Positions 3,170-25,310 of a stretch of 35,130 nucleotides of DNA are shown here, piece after piece. Made by a program: the position numbers and the translations under genes. Position 1 is the stretch's first letter. Each line of letters starts with the position of its first letter. This DNA comes from a virus, in the IMG/VR virus record IMGVR_UViG_3300010430_000269, positions 1-35,130 of that record. One strand, 5' to 3'. The notes under the pieces are model-generated. The model was not told the origin of the DNA and ran no database searches. It worked only from the letters and a program-made list of their open reading frames with translations.

Positions 3170-4507
3170 ATGGCATTAAATGCAGTTCCAGGAGTAAAAT
3201 TAACTCCTACAGCAACAAAAGAAGTTTTGTCTACTAATTACTTAGAGGCAGGTGACTTCGATTTTACTAACCAGTACTTACCAGAGTTATACGACAAAGA
3301 GTTTGCTCGTTACGGTCAACAATCTATTAAAGGATTCCTTGAAAGAATGGGTCAGGAGGTTTCTATGCAATCTGACTTAATCAAGTGGTCTGAAGAAGGT
3401 CGTTTAAGACCAGTAGGTGAGGGTGTTACTAGAGCAGCTAACGTATTTACTTTAGCAGGACATACTTTCCGTAATAACGATACAGTTATTATTGGAGATG
3501 CTACTGCAATTGAAAAAGGTATTGTTACAGCTAATGACGCTACTACTTTCACTGTAGCTCCAGCTAATGCAGCAGGATGGACTATTGGTACAACTGGTTT
3601 AAAATTATTTACTTACTCTAATGAGTATGGAAAAGGTACTAACGGAAGAGATGAATCTTTAGAAGCTCAACCAGACATCTTCGAGAACAACCCAATCATC
3701 ATTAAAGACAAGGATACTGTTAACGGTTCTGATATGGCTCAAATCGGATGGATTCAAGTTGAAGGTGAAAATGGAATGGGGTATTTATGGTATTTAAAAT
3801 CTCGTTCTCAAACTCGTATGCGTTTTGATGATTATATCGAAATGGGTATGGTTGAAGGTGTTTCTTTTGAAGCTGGTTCAGATGCTAAGACTGCTGGATA
3901 CAATGGTACAGAAGGTTTCTTTGAAGCTGTTGAGCAAGGAAATATTTTCGATGGTGAGATTACTACTTTAGATGATATTGATGAAGTATTAGACCGTTTA
4001 AATAAGCAGGGAGCTATCTCTGAGTATATGATGTATAACAAATTTTCTCAAGATAGAGCAATTGATAAGTTATTAGCTTCTCAAAACTCTTACGGAGCTG
4101 GAGGTACTTCTTACGGAGCTTTCAATAACGATGAGAAGATGGCGTTAAACTTAGGATTCTACGGATTCAAAGTAGCAGGTTACGAAATCTACAAGAATCA
4201 ATGGAAATATTTAGATGACCCAACTGCTAGAGGTTTATTTGAAGGTTTAGCTACTGTAAACGGAGTTTTATGTCCTTCAGGAACTAAGACTGTTTATGAT
4301 AATGTATTAGGAAGTAGAGCTACTTTACCTTTCTTACACGTTAAATATCGTAAGTCAGCTACAGAAGACAGACGTTATAAAGTATGGCAAACAGGTTCAG
4401 CAGGTGGAGCTAACACTTCTGACTTAGATGCTAACGAGTTACAATTGTTAACTGAGCGTGCTTTATGTACTATGGGAAGAAACAACTTCGTAATGATAAA
4501 AGGATAG
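3170..4507 (+). CDS. Major capsid protein
   Basis: A 445-residue protein placed as expected for the HK97-fold major capsid protein after portal and scaffold. The N-terminal part (TNYLEAGDFDFTNQYLPELY) precedes helical segments. A beta-rich, T/A/G-rich insertion (about residues 100-165) would fit an E-loop or surface insertion domain, and the C-terminal region ends in a compact GRNNFVMIKG. Codon choice is visibly different from the neighbours: Arg is often CGT, Asn AAC, Phe TTC and Tyr TAC, whereas flanking genes use AGA, AAT, TTT and TAT. That is the mark of translational selection on a very abundant protein. The gene is followed by an intrinsic terminator, as expected for an independently abundant transcript. 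The assignment is by synteny, size and expression bias rather than by a motif. Confidence 0.8.
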   Translation: MALNAVPGVKLTPTATKEVLSTNYLEAGDFDFTNQYLPELYDKEFARYGQQSIKGFLERMGQEVSMQSDLIKWSEEGRLRPVGEGVTRAANVFTLAGHTFRNNDTVIIGDATAIEKGIVTANDATTFTVAPANAAGWTIGTTGLKLFTYSNEYGKGTNGRDESLEAQPDIFENNPIIIKDKDTVNGSDMAQIGWIQVEGENGMGYLWYLKSRSQTRMRFDDYIEMGMVEGVSFEAGSDAKTAGYNGTEGFFEAVEQGNIFDGEITTLDDIDEVLDRLNKQGAISEYMMYNKFSQDRAIDKLLASQNSYGAGGTSYGAFNNDEKMALNLGFYGFKVAGYEIYKNQWKYLDDPTARGLFEGLATVNGVLCPSGTKTVYDNVLGSRATLPFLHVKYRKSATEDRRYKVWQTGSAGGANTSDLDANELQLLTERALCTMGRNNFVMIKG

Positions 4508-19920: not shown

Positions 19921-19942
19921 GGTTTGTATATATACTAGTTAG
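19921..19942. repeat. 22-bp perfect direct repeat, copy 1 (partial attC-like arm)
   Basis: This 22-bp sequence, starting GGTTTGTATA and ending TACTAGTTAG, occurs again without mismatch and in the same orientation at 33749-33770. Read on the minus strand it begins with CTAAC, the R''-type end of a cassette, then TAG and the self-complementary GTATATATAC. At both places it lies at the 3' end of a minus-strand open frame, and neither copy is followed by the matching second arm. The simplest reading is the conserved first half of one attC type whose second half has been lost. The TAA stop of the 107-aa frame (19939-19941) is inside it. Confidence 0.75.
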
Positions 19943-20262
19943 CCACAAAAACCGCAATGTGGGCATTTATCGGCTGGCTCATACCATTTATCGCACTCAT
20001 CACATTGCCATGTAGCTTTACTATTTTGCGGTTTCAGTTCGCTTCGCTGGCTAACAATGTGTTTATGTAATGCTGGTTCTGTGCTCGCATCAGCATCCTG
20101 CAAATAGTCATGTAAAAATAATAAAGCTTTATATGCGCTTAAATTATCTGTGTAACACTTCTTAAAGTATTCGGTATTGCCAAATATTTGTTCATCTGTG
20201 TAGGTGTAGTCTGCACTTCTAATACCTACCATTATTAAATAATCTTCAAATGTTAGTTTCAT
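19939..20262 (-). CDS. Chimeric zinc-ribbon protein reading across a cassette junction
   Basis: A 107-residue frame with a C-terminal zinc ribbon, CDECDKWYEPADKCPHCGFC (about residues 87-106), whose two Cys pairs would bind one zinc ion. The N-terminal 60 residues (MKLTFEDYLIMVGIRSADYT onward) are helical and acidic. The frame starts inside the variable part of attC-like site 4 and runs through that site's L' and R' arms (about residues 64-72, TEPALHKHI). It then ends in the next cassette, with its TAA in that cassette's R''. So it appears to join an N-terminal domain from one cassette to a zinc ribbon from another. Base composition is visibly less AT-rich than the phage genes around it (29 G/C in the 60 bases 20041-20100). 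Whether it is expressed or a by-product of the junction is unknown. Confidence 0.6.
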   Translation of the reverse strand: MKLTFEDYLIMVGIRSADYTYTDEQIFGNTEYFKKCYTDNLSAYKALLFLHDYLQDADASTEPALHKHIVSQRSELKPQNSKATWQCDECDKWYEPADKCPHCGFCG

Positions 20263-20339
20263 ATCTTTATTATTTTTATTCTCACGTATTAAGTTTAGTG
20301 CTGTATTGCCGCACTACACAAACACCCAACGTTACCTGT
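20047..20339 (-). other. attC-like site 4, unusually long (contains the start of a gene)
   Basis: Minus-strand order: R'' ACAGGTAAC (20339-20331), 5-base spacer GTTGG, L'' GTGTTTGTGTAGTGC (20325-20311), then 237 bases, L' GCATTACATAAACAC (20073-20059), 3-base spacer ATT, R' GTTAGCCAG (20055-20047). The 15-base arms pair at all positions if two G-T pairs are allowed. Spacer sizes and sequences (GTTGG, ATT) match site 2 (GTTGA, ATT), which supports homology. The loop region holds a small inner hairpin (AGTGC/GCACT) and the first two-thirds of the 107-aa frame. At 293 bases it exceeds the usual 50-150 base range of integron attC sites. Confidence 0.6.
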
Positions 20340-20347
20340 AATAAAAA

Positions 20348-20590
20348 TTACTTATCATCGGCAAAGTTTAGTAAATGCCAGTTAGCTTCCGAGCCAACTA
20401 TTCTAATTTCATCGCTTGTCCAATCTTCATTCCTACCAACACAAACACCTTTAAATGTTTCTTTAGTTAAGGAGCAAGTTGTCTCTTGTGCCATAACCAG
20501 AGTTCCTTGACTCTCATAAACTTTGCCCTTTAATATAACTTTTCTGCTTTTTTCAAGTTTATAAGGCATTTTAAAATCTTCTTTTTTCAT
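20348..20590 (-). CDS. Cassette-borne small protein, unknown function (80 aa)
   Basis: I do not recognise the family. The product (MKKEDFKMPYKLEKSRKVIL onward) is short, soluble and beta-rich by pattern, with two Cys (in ETTCSL and GVCVGR) and a conserved-looking VGRNEDWTSDEIRIVG segment. The start at 20590 is chosen because the frame upstream of it has only a TTG that lies inside the recombination site. A second ATG (MPYK) seven codons on is also possible. The gene occupies most of its cassette: it starts 24 bases after the opening GTTACC and stops 8 bases before the closing ACAGGTAAC. Such tight packing of one short gene between sites is typical of integron cassettes. No promoter of its own is visible. 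Confidence 0.6.
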   Translation of the reverse strand: MKKEDFKMPYKLEKSRKVILKGKVYESQGTLVMAQETTCSLTKETFKGVCVGRNEDWTSDEIRIVGSEANWHLLNFADDK

Positions 20591-20606
20591 TGTCGTAATT
20601 TTAAAA

Positions 20607-20743
20607 GCAGGTAACAATGTGTATAATCTATTGCTATTTACTGCTTGGTTAATGTTTATTTTTTGTTTAATTAATTCTTTTTTTTAATCCGATAGTTTTC
20701 GCTTGTTTACACGCAACATATCATATACTTGTCCGTTAGCAAA
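20607..20743 (-). other. attC-like site 3
   Basis: Minus-strand order: R'' TTTGCTAAC (20743-20735), spacer GGACAA, L'' GTATATGATATGTTGC (20728-20713), 78-base variable loop, L' GCAATAGATTATAC (20634-20621), spacer ACATT, R' GTTACCTGC (20615-20607). The L arms pair at their ends (GTATA/TATAC and TTGC/GCAA) with unpaired bases between, as in imperfect attC stems. R'' overlaps the TAA stop of the 83-aa gene. The R'' is the exact reverse complement of the opening bases of the same cassette at 20997-21005. Confidence 0.7.
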
Positions 20744-20987
20744 CATTTAGAAGGTCTGCTTCTTTTTGGAATGTGTTTTTCATTTCCTCAATCTTGTTGT
20801 TTAATTCAATTAAAATTTGATGATATTCGGCTTGTTTATTACCTACTTGTTGGTCTGCAAACTTCAATTTAGAATAAGCATCTTCTTGGTATTCATAAGC
20901 TATTTTTAATTCAGTTTTTAATTTATTAGCCTCTGTTCTTACTTGGCTAATTTCTTGTTGTATTTTATCAAATTTTTTAAAGTCCAT
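20736..20987 (-). CDS. Cassette-borne coiled-coil protein (83 aa)
   Basis: The product (MDFKKFDKIQQEISQVRTEA onward) is one long amphipathic helix over nearly its whole length, with heptad-like spacing and abundant E/K/Q, so a dimeric or trimeric coiled coil is likely; no signal peptide or membrane segment. Function is unknown. An in-frame TTG further upstream lies inside the recombination site, so the ATG at 20987 is preferred: it is ten bases after GTTAGCAAA and follows an A/T-rich stretch. The TAA stop is embedded in the closing R'' (TTTGCTAAC), so the gene and its recombination site are fused, as often seen for integron cassettes. A small structural or inhibitor role would fit but nothing proves it. 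Confidence 0.6.
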   Translation of the reverse strand: MDFKKFDKIQQEISQVRTEANKLKTELKIAYEYQEDAYSKLKFADQQVGNKQAEYHQILIELNNKIEEMKNTFQKEADLLNVC

Positions 20988-20996
20988 AATAAAACG

Positions 20997-21117
20997 TTTG
21001 CTAACAATGTATAACAAGCATTGTTAGTCTTTTTTAAGTTAGTATTTGTTTAATTTTAAAATTATTCAATATTTGCGGTCTAATAGCTCAACGCTTGTTA
21101 TACTCAACGTTACCTGC
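20997..21117 (-). other. attC-like site 2 (perfect 11-bp inner arms)
   Basis: Minus-strand order: R'' GCAGGTAAC (21117-21109), spacer GTTGA, L'' GTATAACAAGC (21103-21093), 73-base variable region, L' GCTTGTTATAC (21019-21009), spacer ATT, R' GTTAGCAAA (21005-20997). The L arms are a perfect 11-bp inverted repeat. The outer TAAC/GTTA pair is separated from them by unequal unpaired spacers, the central-spacer geometry of attC sites. A further perfect inverted repeat CTAACAATG/CATTGTTAG (21001-21009 and 21019-21027) is nested at the R' side. Its R'' mirrors the opening bases of the methyltransferase cassette 9/9. Confidence 0.78.
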
Positions 21118-21121
21118 AATA

Positions 21122-22033
21122 CTACGTTAGTTGTATATTTTTGAAGATGTGTGCTATTACATCTACTGTCCAACCATCACCTAATATACAAGCCGATTCG
21201 TTCTGTGTTAATGTATCTGTATATCCTTCTGGTACAGTTTGGCATTTTTCACGCTCTCTATTGTTCATATATCTAACACCATCATAAATACTTAAATCCA
21301 TACCACTAATTAACAGGTCAATTTCTTTGGCACTTTTACCTTTAAAGTTTTTATCAAAATGCTCTTTTATGTTATCAAAATGCTCTTTACTTTTAAAAAT
21401 TAGAGTAGTAAACCCAGTGTTAAAATATCTGTGGCACATTTTAATAGGTGTGCTTAATGGTCTAGAGTCGCTTTCCAATAAAGTTCTTGCTTTTATTCTA
21501 TCAGAATACCCATTAATTAAAGCATCGTTCAATTCTAATCCTAAATCTTTAGGTTGCTCTACGTTTGGTATGTTAGTCCAGTACAATCTATGTCTTAAAT
21601 GTGGTGCTAACTTTTCCGAGTTTATCACAATAGGTTCACAACCTAAAACTTCAGTAATAAAGTCTTGATGTTCTTTTTTCATTCTTACATTTTCAAGCAA
21701 AAAGTATTTAGGTTTAGTTTCTTTCAATAATCTAACATATTCAAAAAACAAACCACTTTTTTCACCTTTAACACCTAACCTTTCTTTATTAGCTCCACTA
21801 AAATCTTGACAAGGGCTACCACCAATAAGCAAATCTATTTTAGGTAAATCGACGGCTTTTATTTTTGTTATATCACCTAACCTATTAACAATATCTTGTG
21901 GGTAGTTTTTGTTAGCTACTTCAATAGCGTATTCTTTTATTTCGCTACTATAATAATTAGTAACAGGTACATTAGCTTTTTCTAAAGCAATTCTACCACA
22001 ACTCATTCCATCAAATAAACTTAATACATTCAT
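21122..22033 (-). CDS. DNA (cytosine-5) methyltransferase, cassette-borne
   Basis: Transfers a methyl group from S-adenosylmethionine to C5 of cytosine in a DNA target. Visible motifs in order: SAM-binding motif I (LSLFDGMSCGRIALEKA, residues 4-20), catalytic motif IV (GGSPCQDFSG, Cys75 the likely nucleophile), motif VI (LLENVR, 113-118), motif VIII-like (RHRLYWTN, 147-154) and a C-terminal MNNREREKCQTVPEGYTDTL followed by LGDGWTVDV, which is motif IX/X-like. At 303 residues it is complete and compact; target specificity cannot be read. No restriction endonuclease is adjacent, so it is solitary and probably masks phage DNA from host restriction or alters expression. It is the only occupant of its cassette: the stop is 4 bases from the closing R''. 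No own promoter is seen. Confidence 0.92.
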   Translation of the reverse strand: MNVLSLFDGMSCGRIALEKANVPVTNYYSSEIKEYAIEVANKNYPQDIVNRLGDITKIKAVDLPKIDLLIGGSPCQDFSGANKERLGVKGEKSGLFFEYVRLLKETKPKYFLLENVRMKKEHQDFITEVLGCEPIVINSEKLAPHLRHRLYWTNIPNVEQPKDLGLELNDALINGYSDRIKARTLLESDSRPLSTPIKMCHRYFNTGFTTLIFKSKEHFDNIKEHFDKNFKGKSAKEIDLLISGMDLSIYDGVRYMNNREREKCQTVPEGYTDTLTQNESACILGDGWTVDVIAHIFKNIQLT

Positions 22034-22070
22034 ATTTTTATAATTTTTATTTTGTTCTTAAATCCGTACA

Positions 22071-22127
22071 GCAGGTAACAACGTATAAAGTGCATTAAAA
22101 CGCACCTTATACAATACCGTTATAGGC
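22071..22127 (-). other. attC-like site 1 (compact, 57 bases)
   Basis: Minus-strand order: R'' GCCTATAAC (22127-22119), spacer GGTATT, L'' GTATAAGGTGC (22112-22102), 8-base loop GTTTTAAT, L' GCACTTTATAC (22093-22083), spacer GTT, R' GTTACCTGC (22079-22071). The arms pair at 10 of 11 positions. The TAA stop of the phosphoesterase gene lies within R''. The loop is shared with the sites at 25255 and 34193. No GTTATAGGC is found at the head of the upstream operon, so the phosphoesterase itself does not look like a cassette. This site may be the resident landing point that received the array. Confidence 0.7.
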
Positions 22128-23340
22128 TAAAATCAAAAACATTAACCCCTTTATTTCCATTGCTCTCTGTAATAGTATATCCTGGTTTTGTACTCCATCC
22201 TCCGTATTCAGAATAAGAATTACCTGTAAACAAACTAGCACAAACTTGTCTCCTACAATCTATAGAATCATCTGAAATCATTTTAAAATTAGATAGTTGT
22301 TTTGCATTTAGTTTAGCTATTCTACTATGTAAGTGACCTTCCATTATAAAGTTAAAATAACCTTTCTCTCCATACTCCCAACATAATTCCTCTGTGCTCT
22401 TACTTTTTGTATAACCATGATGACCATGATTCAATATGTAACACACATCATCAACTATATGTTTTATGATTGAAGTACTGAACTCTACATTGTATCCTAA
22501 TAGTTTTAATCCCCAAGAAATCAATTCAGCAGCACCACCTTCAGTATCCTCATCTTTAGAACTTGTTACTCTATCGTGATTACCAGCTACTATTTTTATA
22601 GTATCAAGGTTATTTATTCTATCTAAAAAATGCTTCTTAAATAACTCTACAAACAACTTAATAGCGGATACTCCAAACATACCTTTATCTAATCCTTTCC
22701 AACTGTTTTTATGATTTAAACCAGTGAAACTTTCTATTAAATCCCCTAATATGTGTATATGCACATTTGAATATGAAAACCTATTGATTCCATAGGCTGC
22801 TGTTTCAAGCATATCACATAATATACTTATATTGAAGTCAGGGGTATTTTTCATAGCTGATATATAAGCTCCGAAATGAAAGTCTGTCAATGTTATAACA
22901 CCCTGTCCTCTTCCTGGAGTACTTATATCTCTCTTAGGGTTCAGTGTATTTAATTGTCTTTCTAGTTCACCTATATAATCAAAGTCATCTCCATTCAAAG
23001 AGTTTTCTTTAAATAGAATATTGTAAAACGGAGTTCCTGTATGACTTACAAGTTTATAATTCTTAACATCTTCTCTAGGTAATTTATAATGAGAGCAATA
23101 CTCATCAATATCCATCATATACCCATTATCATTCCATGCAGACAAAACAAAAGGAACTTCTTTATTGTGTTTCAATGGCTTACTTGTTTTTTTGCCACTT
23201 CTAGAATCTAATATAAACTGCCATTGCTCTTCTGTTATTTTGTATCTAGCATTCTTTCTTTTTCTTTCATTAGGCTTAACCTTTAATCCAAGTAGTTCAG
23301 CTTCGTGTTTTTTTAGCCATCTTGTAGATTTCTTACTCAT
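22120..23340 (-). CDS. Calcineurin-like metallophosphoesterase
   Basis: A 406-residue protein with all five phosphoesterase motifs: DFHFG (153-157, D and H metal ligands), GDLIES (199-204), GNHDR (253-257), GHHGY (306-310) and GHLH (335-338). These bind two metal ions and hydrolyse phosphodiesters. The N-terminal 140 residues are a separate basic region (WLKKHEAELLGLKVKPNERK onward), possibly DNA-binding. Homologous proteins in phage replication modules are thought to act as nucleases or phosphatases related to SbcD/Mre11, but no SbcC partner is seen. The start at 23340 overlaps the upstream gene by 8 bases. The C-terminus (NVFDFSL) runs into attC-like site 1, whose R'' supplies the stop codon, so the original end of the protein may have been different. 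Confidence 0.85.
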   Translation of the reverse strand: MSKKSTRWLKKHEAELLGLKVKPNERKRKNARYKITEEQWQFILDSRSGKKTSKPLKHNKEVPFVLSAWNDNGYMMDIDEYCSHYKLPREDVKNYKLVSHTGTPFYNILFKENSLNGDDFDYIGELERQLNTLNPKRDISTPGRGQGVITLTDFHFGAYISAMKNTPDFNISILCDMLETAAYGINRFSYSNVHIHILGDLIESFTGLNHKNSWKGLDKGMFGVSAIKLFVELFKKHFLDRINNLDTIKIVAGNHDRVTSSKDEDTEGGAAELISWGLKLLGYNVEFSTSIIKHIVDDVCYILNHGHHGYTKSKSTEELCWEYGEKGYFNFIMEGHLHSRIAKLNAKQLSNFKMISDDSIDCRRQVCASLFTGNSYSEYGGWSTKPGYTITESNGNKGVNVFDFSL

Positions 23341-25254: not shown

Positions 25255-25310
25255 TTAGTTAACAAAGTATAAACTACATTAAAACGATAGTTTATACGGT
25301 AGTTATATAC
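25255..25310 (-). other. attC-like site 5 (compact, 56 bases)
   Basis: Minus-strand order: R'' GTATATAAC (25310-25302), spacer TACC, L'' GTATAAACTA (25297-25288), 11-base loop TCGTTTTAATG, L' TAGTTTATAC (25276-25267), spacer TTT, R' GTTAACTAA (25263-25255). The L arms are a perfect 10-bp inverted repeat. The geometry and loop match site 1 at 22071 although the flanks are unrelated. Confidence 0.7.

Follow-up and report, generated by a model that had tools for sequence, protein, structure and literature searches.

A probable array of integron-type gene cassettes in a phage genome, and the site lineage of Bacteroidota and their viruses to which it belongs

Results

Layout of the cassette region

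The window considered here is the whole of a linear IMG/VR virus record of 35,130 bases, IMGVR_UViG_3300010430_000269. On its minus strand, at 22118–19938 and 3' of a phosphoesterase gene, four units of one gene each lie between sites resembling the attC sites of integrons (Table 1). The region is very probably an array of integron-type gene cassettes, part of a widespread system of Bacteroidota and their viruses with exchangeable units. An earlier note on this DNA had proposed an integron-like array with a single gene per unit, and both points stand: the boundaries match those in unrelated phages, the same class of site is found in long arrays at the side of recombinase genes, and units are precisely lost and gained in relatives.

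The R'' boxes lie at 22127–22119, 21119–21109, 20745–20735 and 20341–20331, with a terminal R'' at 19948–19938, and the R' boxes begin at 22079, 21005, 20615 and 20055. R'' of site A contains the TAA with which the phosphoesterase gene ends. The gene of cassette 1 (22033–21122) encodes a C5-cytosine DNA methyltransferase (PF00145, E-value 4e-36). The 80-residue open reading frame (ORF) of cassette 3 had no match in Pfam or PHROG, and the 107-residue product of cassette 4 has a zinc-ribbon end whose matches to Pfam zinc-ribbon families lie below threshold. The arms of site D, GTGTTTGTG and CATAAACAC, are 9 bp long and about 250 nt apart. A gene start lies inside the hairpin loop of this site (20341–20045), as it does in a cassette of Polaribacter phage Freya_10; locus L384, a Freya isolate, has such a cassette at 3794–3975.

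The four sites A to D had been recognised in the earlier note, but a fifth, outside the range then considered, had been missed. Since the box of this fifth site and site A are not mirror images, the 3.1 kb between the two is not one clean cassette. Nor does the supposedly less AT-rich composition of the array bear scrutiny, its guanine-plus-cytosine content being 0.312 against 0.305, with 36% of equal-sized segments as high.

Table 1. Features of the cassette region and its surroundings (positions in the window)
Feature	Position	Strand	Details
Phosphoesterase (exonuclease-like) gene	22120..23340	-	5' edge of array; phrog_284, E-value 9e-15
attC-like site A	22069..22127	-	R'' GCCTATAAC 22127-22119; R' GTTACCTGC from 22079
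Cassette 1 (exchange point to exchange point)	21109..22118	-	site A core, leader, C5-cytosine DNA methyltransferase gene, R'' GCAGGTAAC
attC-like site B	20995..21119	-	loop ~73 nt; 40.5 bits, E-value 6e-7
Cassette 2	20735..21108	-	site B core and 83-residue coiled-coil ORF (20987-20736); own-end mirror 10/10
attC-like site C	20603..20745	-	loop ~78 nt; 29.2 bits; homologous to phage JQ site
Cassette 3	20331..20734	-	site C core and 80-residue orphan ORF (20590-20348); own-end mirror 8/9
attC-like site D	20045..20341	-	very long loop; arms near 20327-20317 and 20067-20056
Cassette 4	19938..20330	-	site D core and 107-residue ORF (20262-19939); R'' GTGGCTAAC, the distal array edge
Fifth attC-like site	25256..25310	-	upstream of phosphoesterase block; found by models R1 and R2

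Each unit pairs with its own end

The start of each unit matches the complement of the unit's own end: GTTACCTGC at 9 of 9 positions, GTTAGCAAAC at 10 of 10, and GTTACCTG and GTTAGCCA each at 8 of 9. This mirroring, which the earlier note had described for the four units, is general. In a set of 167 pairs of adjacent sites, drawn from phages and bacteria, own-end matches numbered 1076, against 560 ± 17 with permuted partners (maximum 622), and a second phage set, selected by recombinase, gave 625 of 903 against 383 ± 13. The own-end match per position is 0.61–0.90 (positions 4–10), compared with 0.30–0.43 between the two boxes of one site (positions 5–10), and this profile sets the length of the paired box at about 10 bp. 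Position 11 is nearly always mismatched (0.01), whilst position 12 pairs again. Site alignments also contain a conserved AATT-N7-AAC / GTT-N7-AGTT pattern, which may reflect an additional recombinase contact.

Units and boundaries shared with other phages

The methyltransferase unit is also present in Synechococcus phage S-CBS2, where homology spans the gene and halts exactly at GCAGGTAACG (at GGTAACG for cassette 1). Tenacibaculum phage JQ has sites A and C, with homology running from TAAC through the hairpin into the gene leader; site A has homologues in both phages. These boundaries indicate that in phages the core precedes the gene and that exchange occurs at AAC|G (the bar marks the point of exchange). 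Together with the precise losses in phages Freya and Danklef described below, the S-CBS2 boundary places exchange exactly at the core site, as in integron cassettes. Homology breakpoints and natural deletions put the exchange point at AAC| in R'', on the 5' side of the hairpin in the direction of the gene. This point equals the canonical G^TT of the other strand, the point named in the earlier note, and the hairpin core therefore travels in front of its gene.

Phage-to-phage sharing of cassettes is common, with DNA methyltransferases foremost. One viral contig (L023) carries an 86% identical methyltransferase inside a unit with different boxes. Most of the relatives that other phages carry at 66–82% identity are ordinary genes lacking sites, and a cassette is therefore not a fixed setting of this gene. 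Another contig (L022) has a 91% identical methyltransferase gene and degenerate remnants of a cassette end.

Natural loss and gain of units in Polaribacter phages

Freya and its sister species Danklef are related to the window phage in site class only. The isolates of Freya range from 43,978 to 48,920 b, and the main text of the paper that gives this range does not mention integrons (Bartlau et al., PMC8776804). In a comparison of eight isolates, every length difference sits just upstream of the integrase gene, the product of which is 38% identical to the large-phage recombinase family. The 43,454-b remainder is identical in Freya_1, 3, 5, 8, 9 and 10, and differs by 4 bases in Freya_2 and by 1 in Freya_6. 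Relative to Freya_10, losses of 4942, 4100, 3198, 902 and 307 b are found, and Freya_6 carries a new unit of 472 b. All breakpoints are at AAC|, and the motif TTnTTnnnAAC has exactly five occurrences in the 5.6-kb region, which are the five breakpoints. Four of the losses and the gain have a common end, AAC|ACCCC, 46 b before the integrase gene, which looks like a platform, that is, an analogue of attI.

Within the corresponding region of Danklef, isolate Danklef_3 lacks one 781-b adenine-methylase unit of Danklef_5 (locus L397, 37833–38614), with ends at AAC|. The annotated Danklef integrase is merely a fragment of 43 residues, suggesting that the enzyme acted in trans or that its gene was lost after the event. 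The junctions of the natural deletions share just 3–4 bases (AAC), always at the box.

A family of sites with a covarying stem

A search pattern of the site-A type (TAAC-N1-4-TTGTATA-N8-38-TATACGNTGTTA) found the exact subtype in 53 viral contigs of IMG/VR, where the stems are compensated and the outer boxes vary. The same search in 84,980 bacterial and archaeal species gave four matches, three of them convincing (Winogradskyella, Ulvibacterium and Algibacter); a Parabacteroides match (L160) was judged a chance match. Two covariance models were built, R1 from 42 site-A-type sites with the window left out of training, and the broader R2 from 56 phage and host sites. Site A scored 65.5 bits (E-value 2e-13) with R1 and 66.6 bits with R2, and the fifth site 35.8 bits with R1 (25256–25309) and 46.1 bits (E-value 4e-8) with R2. 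R2 also recovered sites B and C, the latter with an E-value of 2e-4 (scores in Table 1). Site D is called from its 9-bp arms and the 8/9 own-end mirror. Run on 905 kb from 99 other viral loci, R1 gave no match. Amongst Flavobacteriaceae, sites were found in 41 of 299 genomes with R1 and in 54 of 149 with R2.

In the alignment of 56 sites, double changes occur in 10 of 18 pairs, and the covariation score is 0.41 against 0.14 ± 0.01 for shuffled alignments, falling below 0.1 when the alignment is slid. Single sequences fold only modestly better than their shuffled versions (z of −2.2 for site A, −2.5 for B and about 0 for C). The structural evidence for the sites is therefore the family-wide covariation rather than single-sequence folding. 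An Rfam scan of the window gave no match, and a search there for tRNA or tmRNA involvement found none.

A tyrosine recombinase beside the arrays

The association of sites and recombinase was examined in reverse in 80 viral loci picked by their recombinase alone, 59 of which had at least 1.5 kb of upstream sequence. R2 sites lay upstream of the recombinase in 53 of these 59. In the recombinase-selected viral loci, 195 sites lay upstream and 3 downstream, at a median distance of 689 b and all on the recombinase strand. A large-terminase match was found in 15 of 50 such contigs, which reach 362 kb and in which T4-type RNA ligase/tail-fibre attachment, helicase and SbcC genes are neighbours.

One-strand arrays of 20, 12 and 9 sites in Flavobacteriaceae (L193, L200 and L202) abut a recombinase of 375–390 residues. 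By comparison, 20 loci of XerC/XerD-type paralogues from the same genomes gave just two weak site matches, both in one locus. No IntI above the NCBIfam cut-off was found in 299 Flavobacteriaceae genomes, in a search that gave no positive-control signal. In seven Flavobacteriaceae genomes, the three above among them, the recombinase beside the chromosomal array is extended at its N terminus and has no IntI additional domain.

The best family for these recombinases is NF040815 (XerA/integron integrase), followed by TIGR02249, below cut-off. TIGR02249 aligns to them in two pieces, and the gap is the IntI additional domain. The distance from the box I arginine to the box II histidine is 83–85 residues in phages, 84–90 in Flavobacteriaceae and 87 in Freya, against 96 in Xer and 131 in IntI1. 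In a FastTree phylogeny the phage and host recombinases group with IntI1, apart from Xer, with support of 0.87; IntI1 is the sole canonical IntI in the tree, so the grouping is suggestive only.

A Persicobacter plasmid (Cytophagales; locus L388, 3674–3806) has a single R2 site, and the region around it encodes a recombinase of 43% identity. As judged by this plasmid, the site lineage may extend beyond Flavobacteriaceae.

Gene polarity differs between phages and hosts

Phage genes lie behind the core, whilst host genes lie in front of it. The ratio of gene directions relative to the site is 64:4 in phages and 122:3 in the second phage set (186:7 in total), and the opposite, 1:91, in hosts. With respect to the site, the recombinase flanks the array on one and the same side in both groups. 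In Flavobacteriaceae it has the direction of the cassette genes and is found at their 5' end; in phages it is found at their 3' end. No cassette protein was common to the phages and the sampled host arrays.

The phage that carries the array

The portal protein is 62% identical to that of Flavobacterium elemo phages and the structural genes resemble theirs; the host phage of the array is best explained as a Bacteroidota podovirus. Elemovirus was rejected as a close match, the portal being related but the gene neighbourhood different. Since elemo-phage records are about 60 kb long, the 35,130-b window is probably a genome fragment. The phosphoesterase gene is kept as a phage gene in relatives (L001–L021), where R1 finds no sites.

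Discussion

Phage-borne integron cassettes are a known kind of element, and the statement in the earlier note that no well-described phage uses them was outdated. A set of 21 phages with integrons or cassette arrays, Polaribacter phage P12002L among them, was described by Qi et al. 2023 (PMC9892861), who noted methyltransferase cargo and reported that IntI1 recombines phage attC sites, one of them from P12002L. The P12002L array holds the site lineage of the window at about 38031–38094, between a methyltransferase and a Mom-like gene. Their clusters of attC sites lacking an integron integrase (CALINs) in P12002L, Tetrasphaera phage TJE1 and Pseudoalteromonas phage PH101 resemble the present array in being integrase-less, in residing in virulent phages and in carrying DNA methyltransferases. 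In the window, likewise, sites A, B and C have E-values of 2.1e-4 or less and lie on one strand within 1.6 kb, and the 35-kb record, probably a fragment, has no nearby integron integrase. In contrast, the account of Qi et al. describes, in its main text, no such recombinase, Flavobacteriaceae integrons, polarity reversal or natural excision of this type, and Synechococcus, Tenacibaculum and Cellulophaga are absent from that text.

As far as the literature found allows, what is new is that the sites form an attC lineage of Bacteroidota and phages, that the adjoining tyrosine recombinase is without the IntI additional domain, that gene polarity is reversed in phages, and that units are lost and gained at AAC| in Freya and Danklef. 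No description of Bacteroidota integrons, of IntI without the additional domain or of jumbo-phage integrons was found in a literature search that covered mainly open-access papers, to the exclusion of preprints and supplements. For Bacteroidetes, IntegronFinder 2.0 lists a complete integron in Salinibacter ruber; the attC taxonomy of Ghaly et al. includes no model for Bacteroidota. Four things go beyond the earlier note: the recombinase family, the integrons of the hosts, the reversed polarity and the fifth site.

The window array shares with classical integrons (class 1 and the Vibrio superintegrons) one-gene cassettes whose ends are mutually complementary, attC hairpins with R and L boxes and the pairing of each cassette with its own end; a related tyrosine recombinase and long one-strand arrays are further likenesses of the system. 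There are also clear differences. The recombinases of the lineage do not have the additional domain (83–90 residues between the conserved boxes, against 131 in IntI1), own-end pairing covers about 10 bp rather than the 7-bp GTTRRRY box, and phage genes are reversed relative to the site and so depart from the canonical orientation to the attC core. An integrase with attI in cis, as in a complete integron, is absent from the window; relatives have the recombinase and, in Freya, the platform point. A classical class 1 locus gave no match to R2.

In Treponema-type integrons the integrase is co-directed with the cassettes. Flavobacteriaceae resemble this type in having the recombinase at the 5' end of the cassette genes and in their direction, but it is of another subfamily, and its place in phages is the 3' end. 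A likeness to XerA, XerC and XerD is that NF040815 (XerA/integron integrase) is the best family for the recombinases of the lineage. It is these recombinases that the arrays adjoin, not the XerC/D enzymes encoded on the same chromosomes.

Each unit consists of a hairpin-forming attC-like site, then one gene, then a box complementary to the start of the unit. These features suggest a mechanism in which a tyrosine recombinase would act on the hairpins, presumably as folded single strands, excise units as circles and insert them at other sites, with strand exchange at AAC|G (C|GTT in the opposite strand). The enzyme natural to these sites is most likely of the subfamily described above, related to IntI and XerA and without the IntI additional domain. 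As the window contains no recombinase, exchange in its phage would take place in trans, with the host, a prophage or a co-infecting phage as the source of the enzyme, or would depend on a gene in genome sequence that the record lacks. The DNA cytosine methyltransferase of cassette 1 probably shields phage DNA from restriction and would be exchanged between phages.

A broader proposal is moderately favoured, namely that phages, including giant ones, run an integron system of their own, in which a recombinase without the additional domain works on folded attC-like sites to shuffle cassettes of reverse polarity that contain anti-restriction and orphan genes. The window would then represent spread into a podovirus without a recombinase, and the system a separate branch, parallel or ancestral to IntI.

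Several observations weigh against the mechanism set out above. No PF00589 match to a tyrosine recombinase was found in the 35-kb record, itself probably a fragment, and only 4 of 50 viral records selected by their attC-like sites encode such an enzyme; three of the four recombinases lie within about 0.5–3 kb of the array, one of these distances assuming a circular record. Many IMG/VR records are fragments. Site D scores below the reach of both models, and the distal array edge is likewise missed. Identity between the Freya recombinase and the large-phage family is only about 38%, and in Freya R2 detects no more than a strong site and a weak one. Activity of a recombinase without the IntI additional domain is a prediction, and the I2 helix of that domain has been credited with single-strand recombination (PMC7790495). 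Finally, none of 50 capsid and phosphoesterase relatives of the window phage has a site, and turnover is thus unseen in its own lineage. The earlier note had looked to relatives for empty or refilled sites at the end of the phosphoesterase gene. The capsid relatives provide none, and its worry that all relatives might carry the same genes does not apply to them. In the nearest phosphoesterase relative (L001, 64% identity) there is no site at that gene end, which is compatible with an empty site, although the distance is too great for proof.

Alternatively, the region could be an inert remnant of a classical IntI integron, captured through illegitimate or homologous recombination. Such an origin would fit a window without a recombinase and relatives without an array, and Qi et al. 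suggest off-target and illegitimate recombination for the boundaries of several phage arrays (PMC9892861). It is nevertheless improbable: the exact site subtype occurs in 53 viral contigs against three convincing matches amongst the bacterial and archaeal species, phage cassettes have the opposite polarity to host cassettes and no proteins in common with the sampled host arrays, R2 does not match the class 1 locus, and IntI was not found over cut-off in the 299 Flavobacteriaceae genomes, albeit in the search lacking a positive-control signal.

Gains and losses might also be made by homologous recombination between repeated sites, with no dedicated recombinase, since sites of the same type resemble each other. 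However, junctions that share 3–4 bases at the box, and never lie elsewhere in the hairpin, together with a recombinase gene adjoining the arrays in most recombinase-selected loci, make this very unlikely. Least credible is the idea that the tandem hairpins between the small phage genes serve as terminators or form transcript structures of another kind: although they lie between co-directed genes, and canonical attC sites are thought to be weak terminators (Qi et al., PMC9892861), the long variable loops, stem covariation, own-end complementarity across whole units and exact exchange of units between unrelated phages and between near-identical isolates speak against it, and the precise unit losses refute it as a full explanation. 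The hairpins possibly have a regulatory side role.

The core of the integron-type cassette reading is thus sound, and the wider system is of greater interest than the window by itself. Integrons are known from textbooks as the devices with which bacteria capture genes, and an extra domain of their enzyme is believed to be required for handling folded single-stranded sites. That sites of the integron kind adjoin an enzyme without this domain, in Flavobacteriaceae and in many phages, bears on the evolution of integrons. Cultured phages that differ essentially only in their cassettes make it possible to test whether phages evade restriction by exchanging cassettes, and how they carry genes between hosts as different as Flavobacteriaceae and cyanobacteria.

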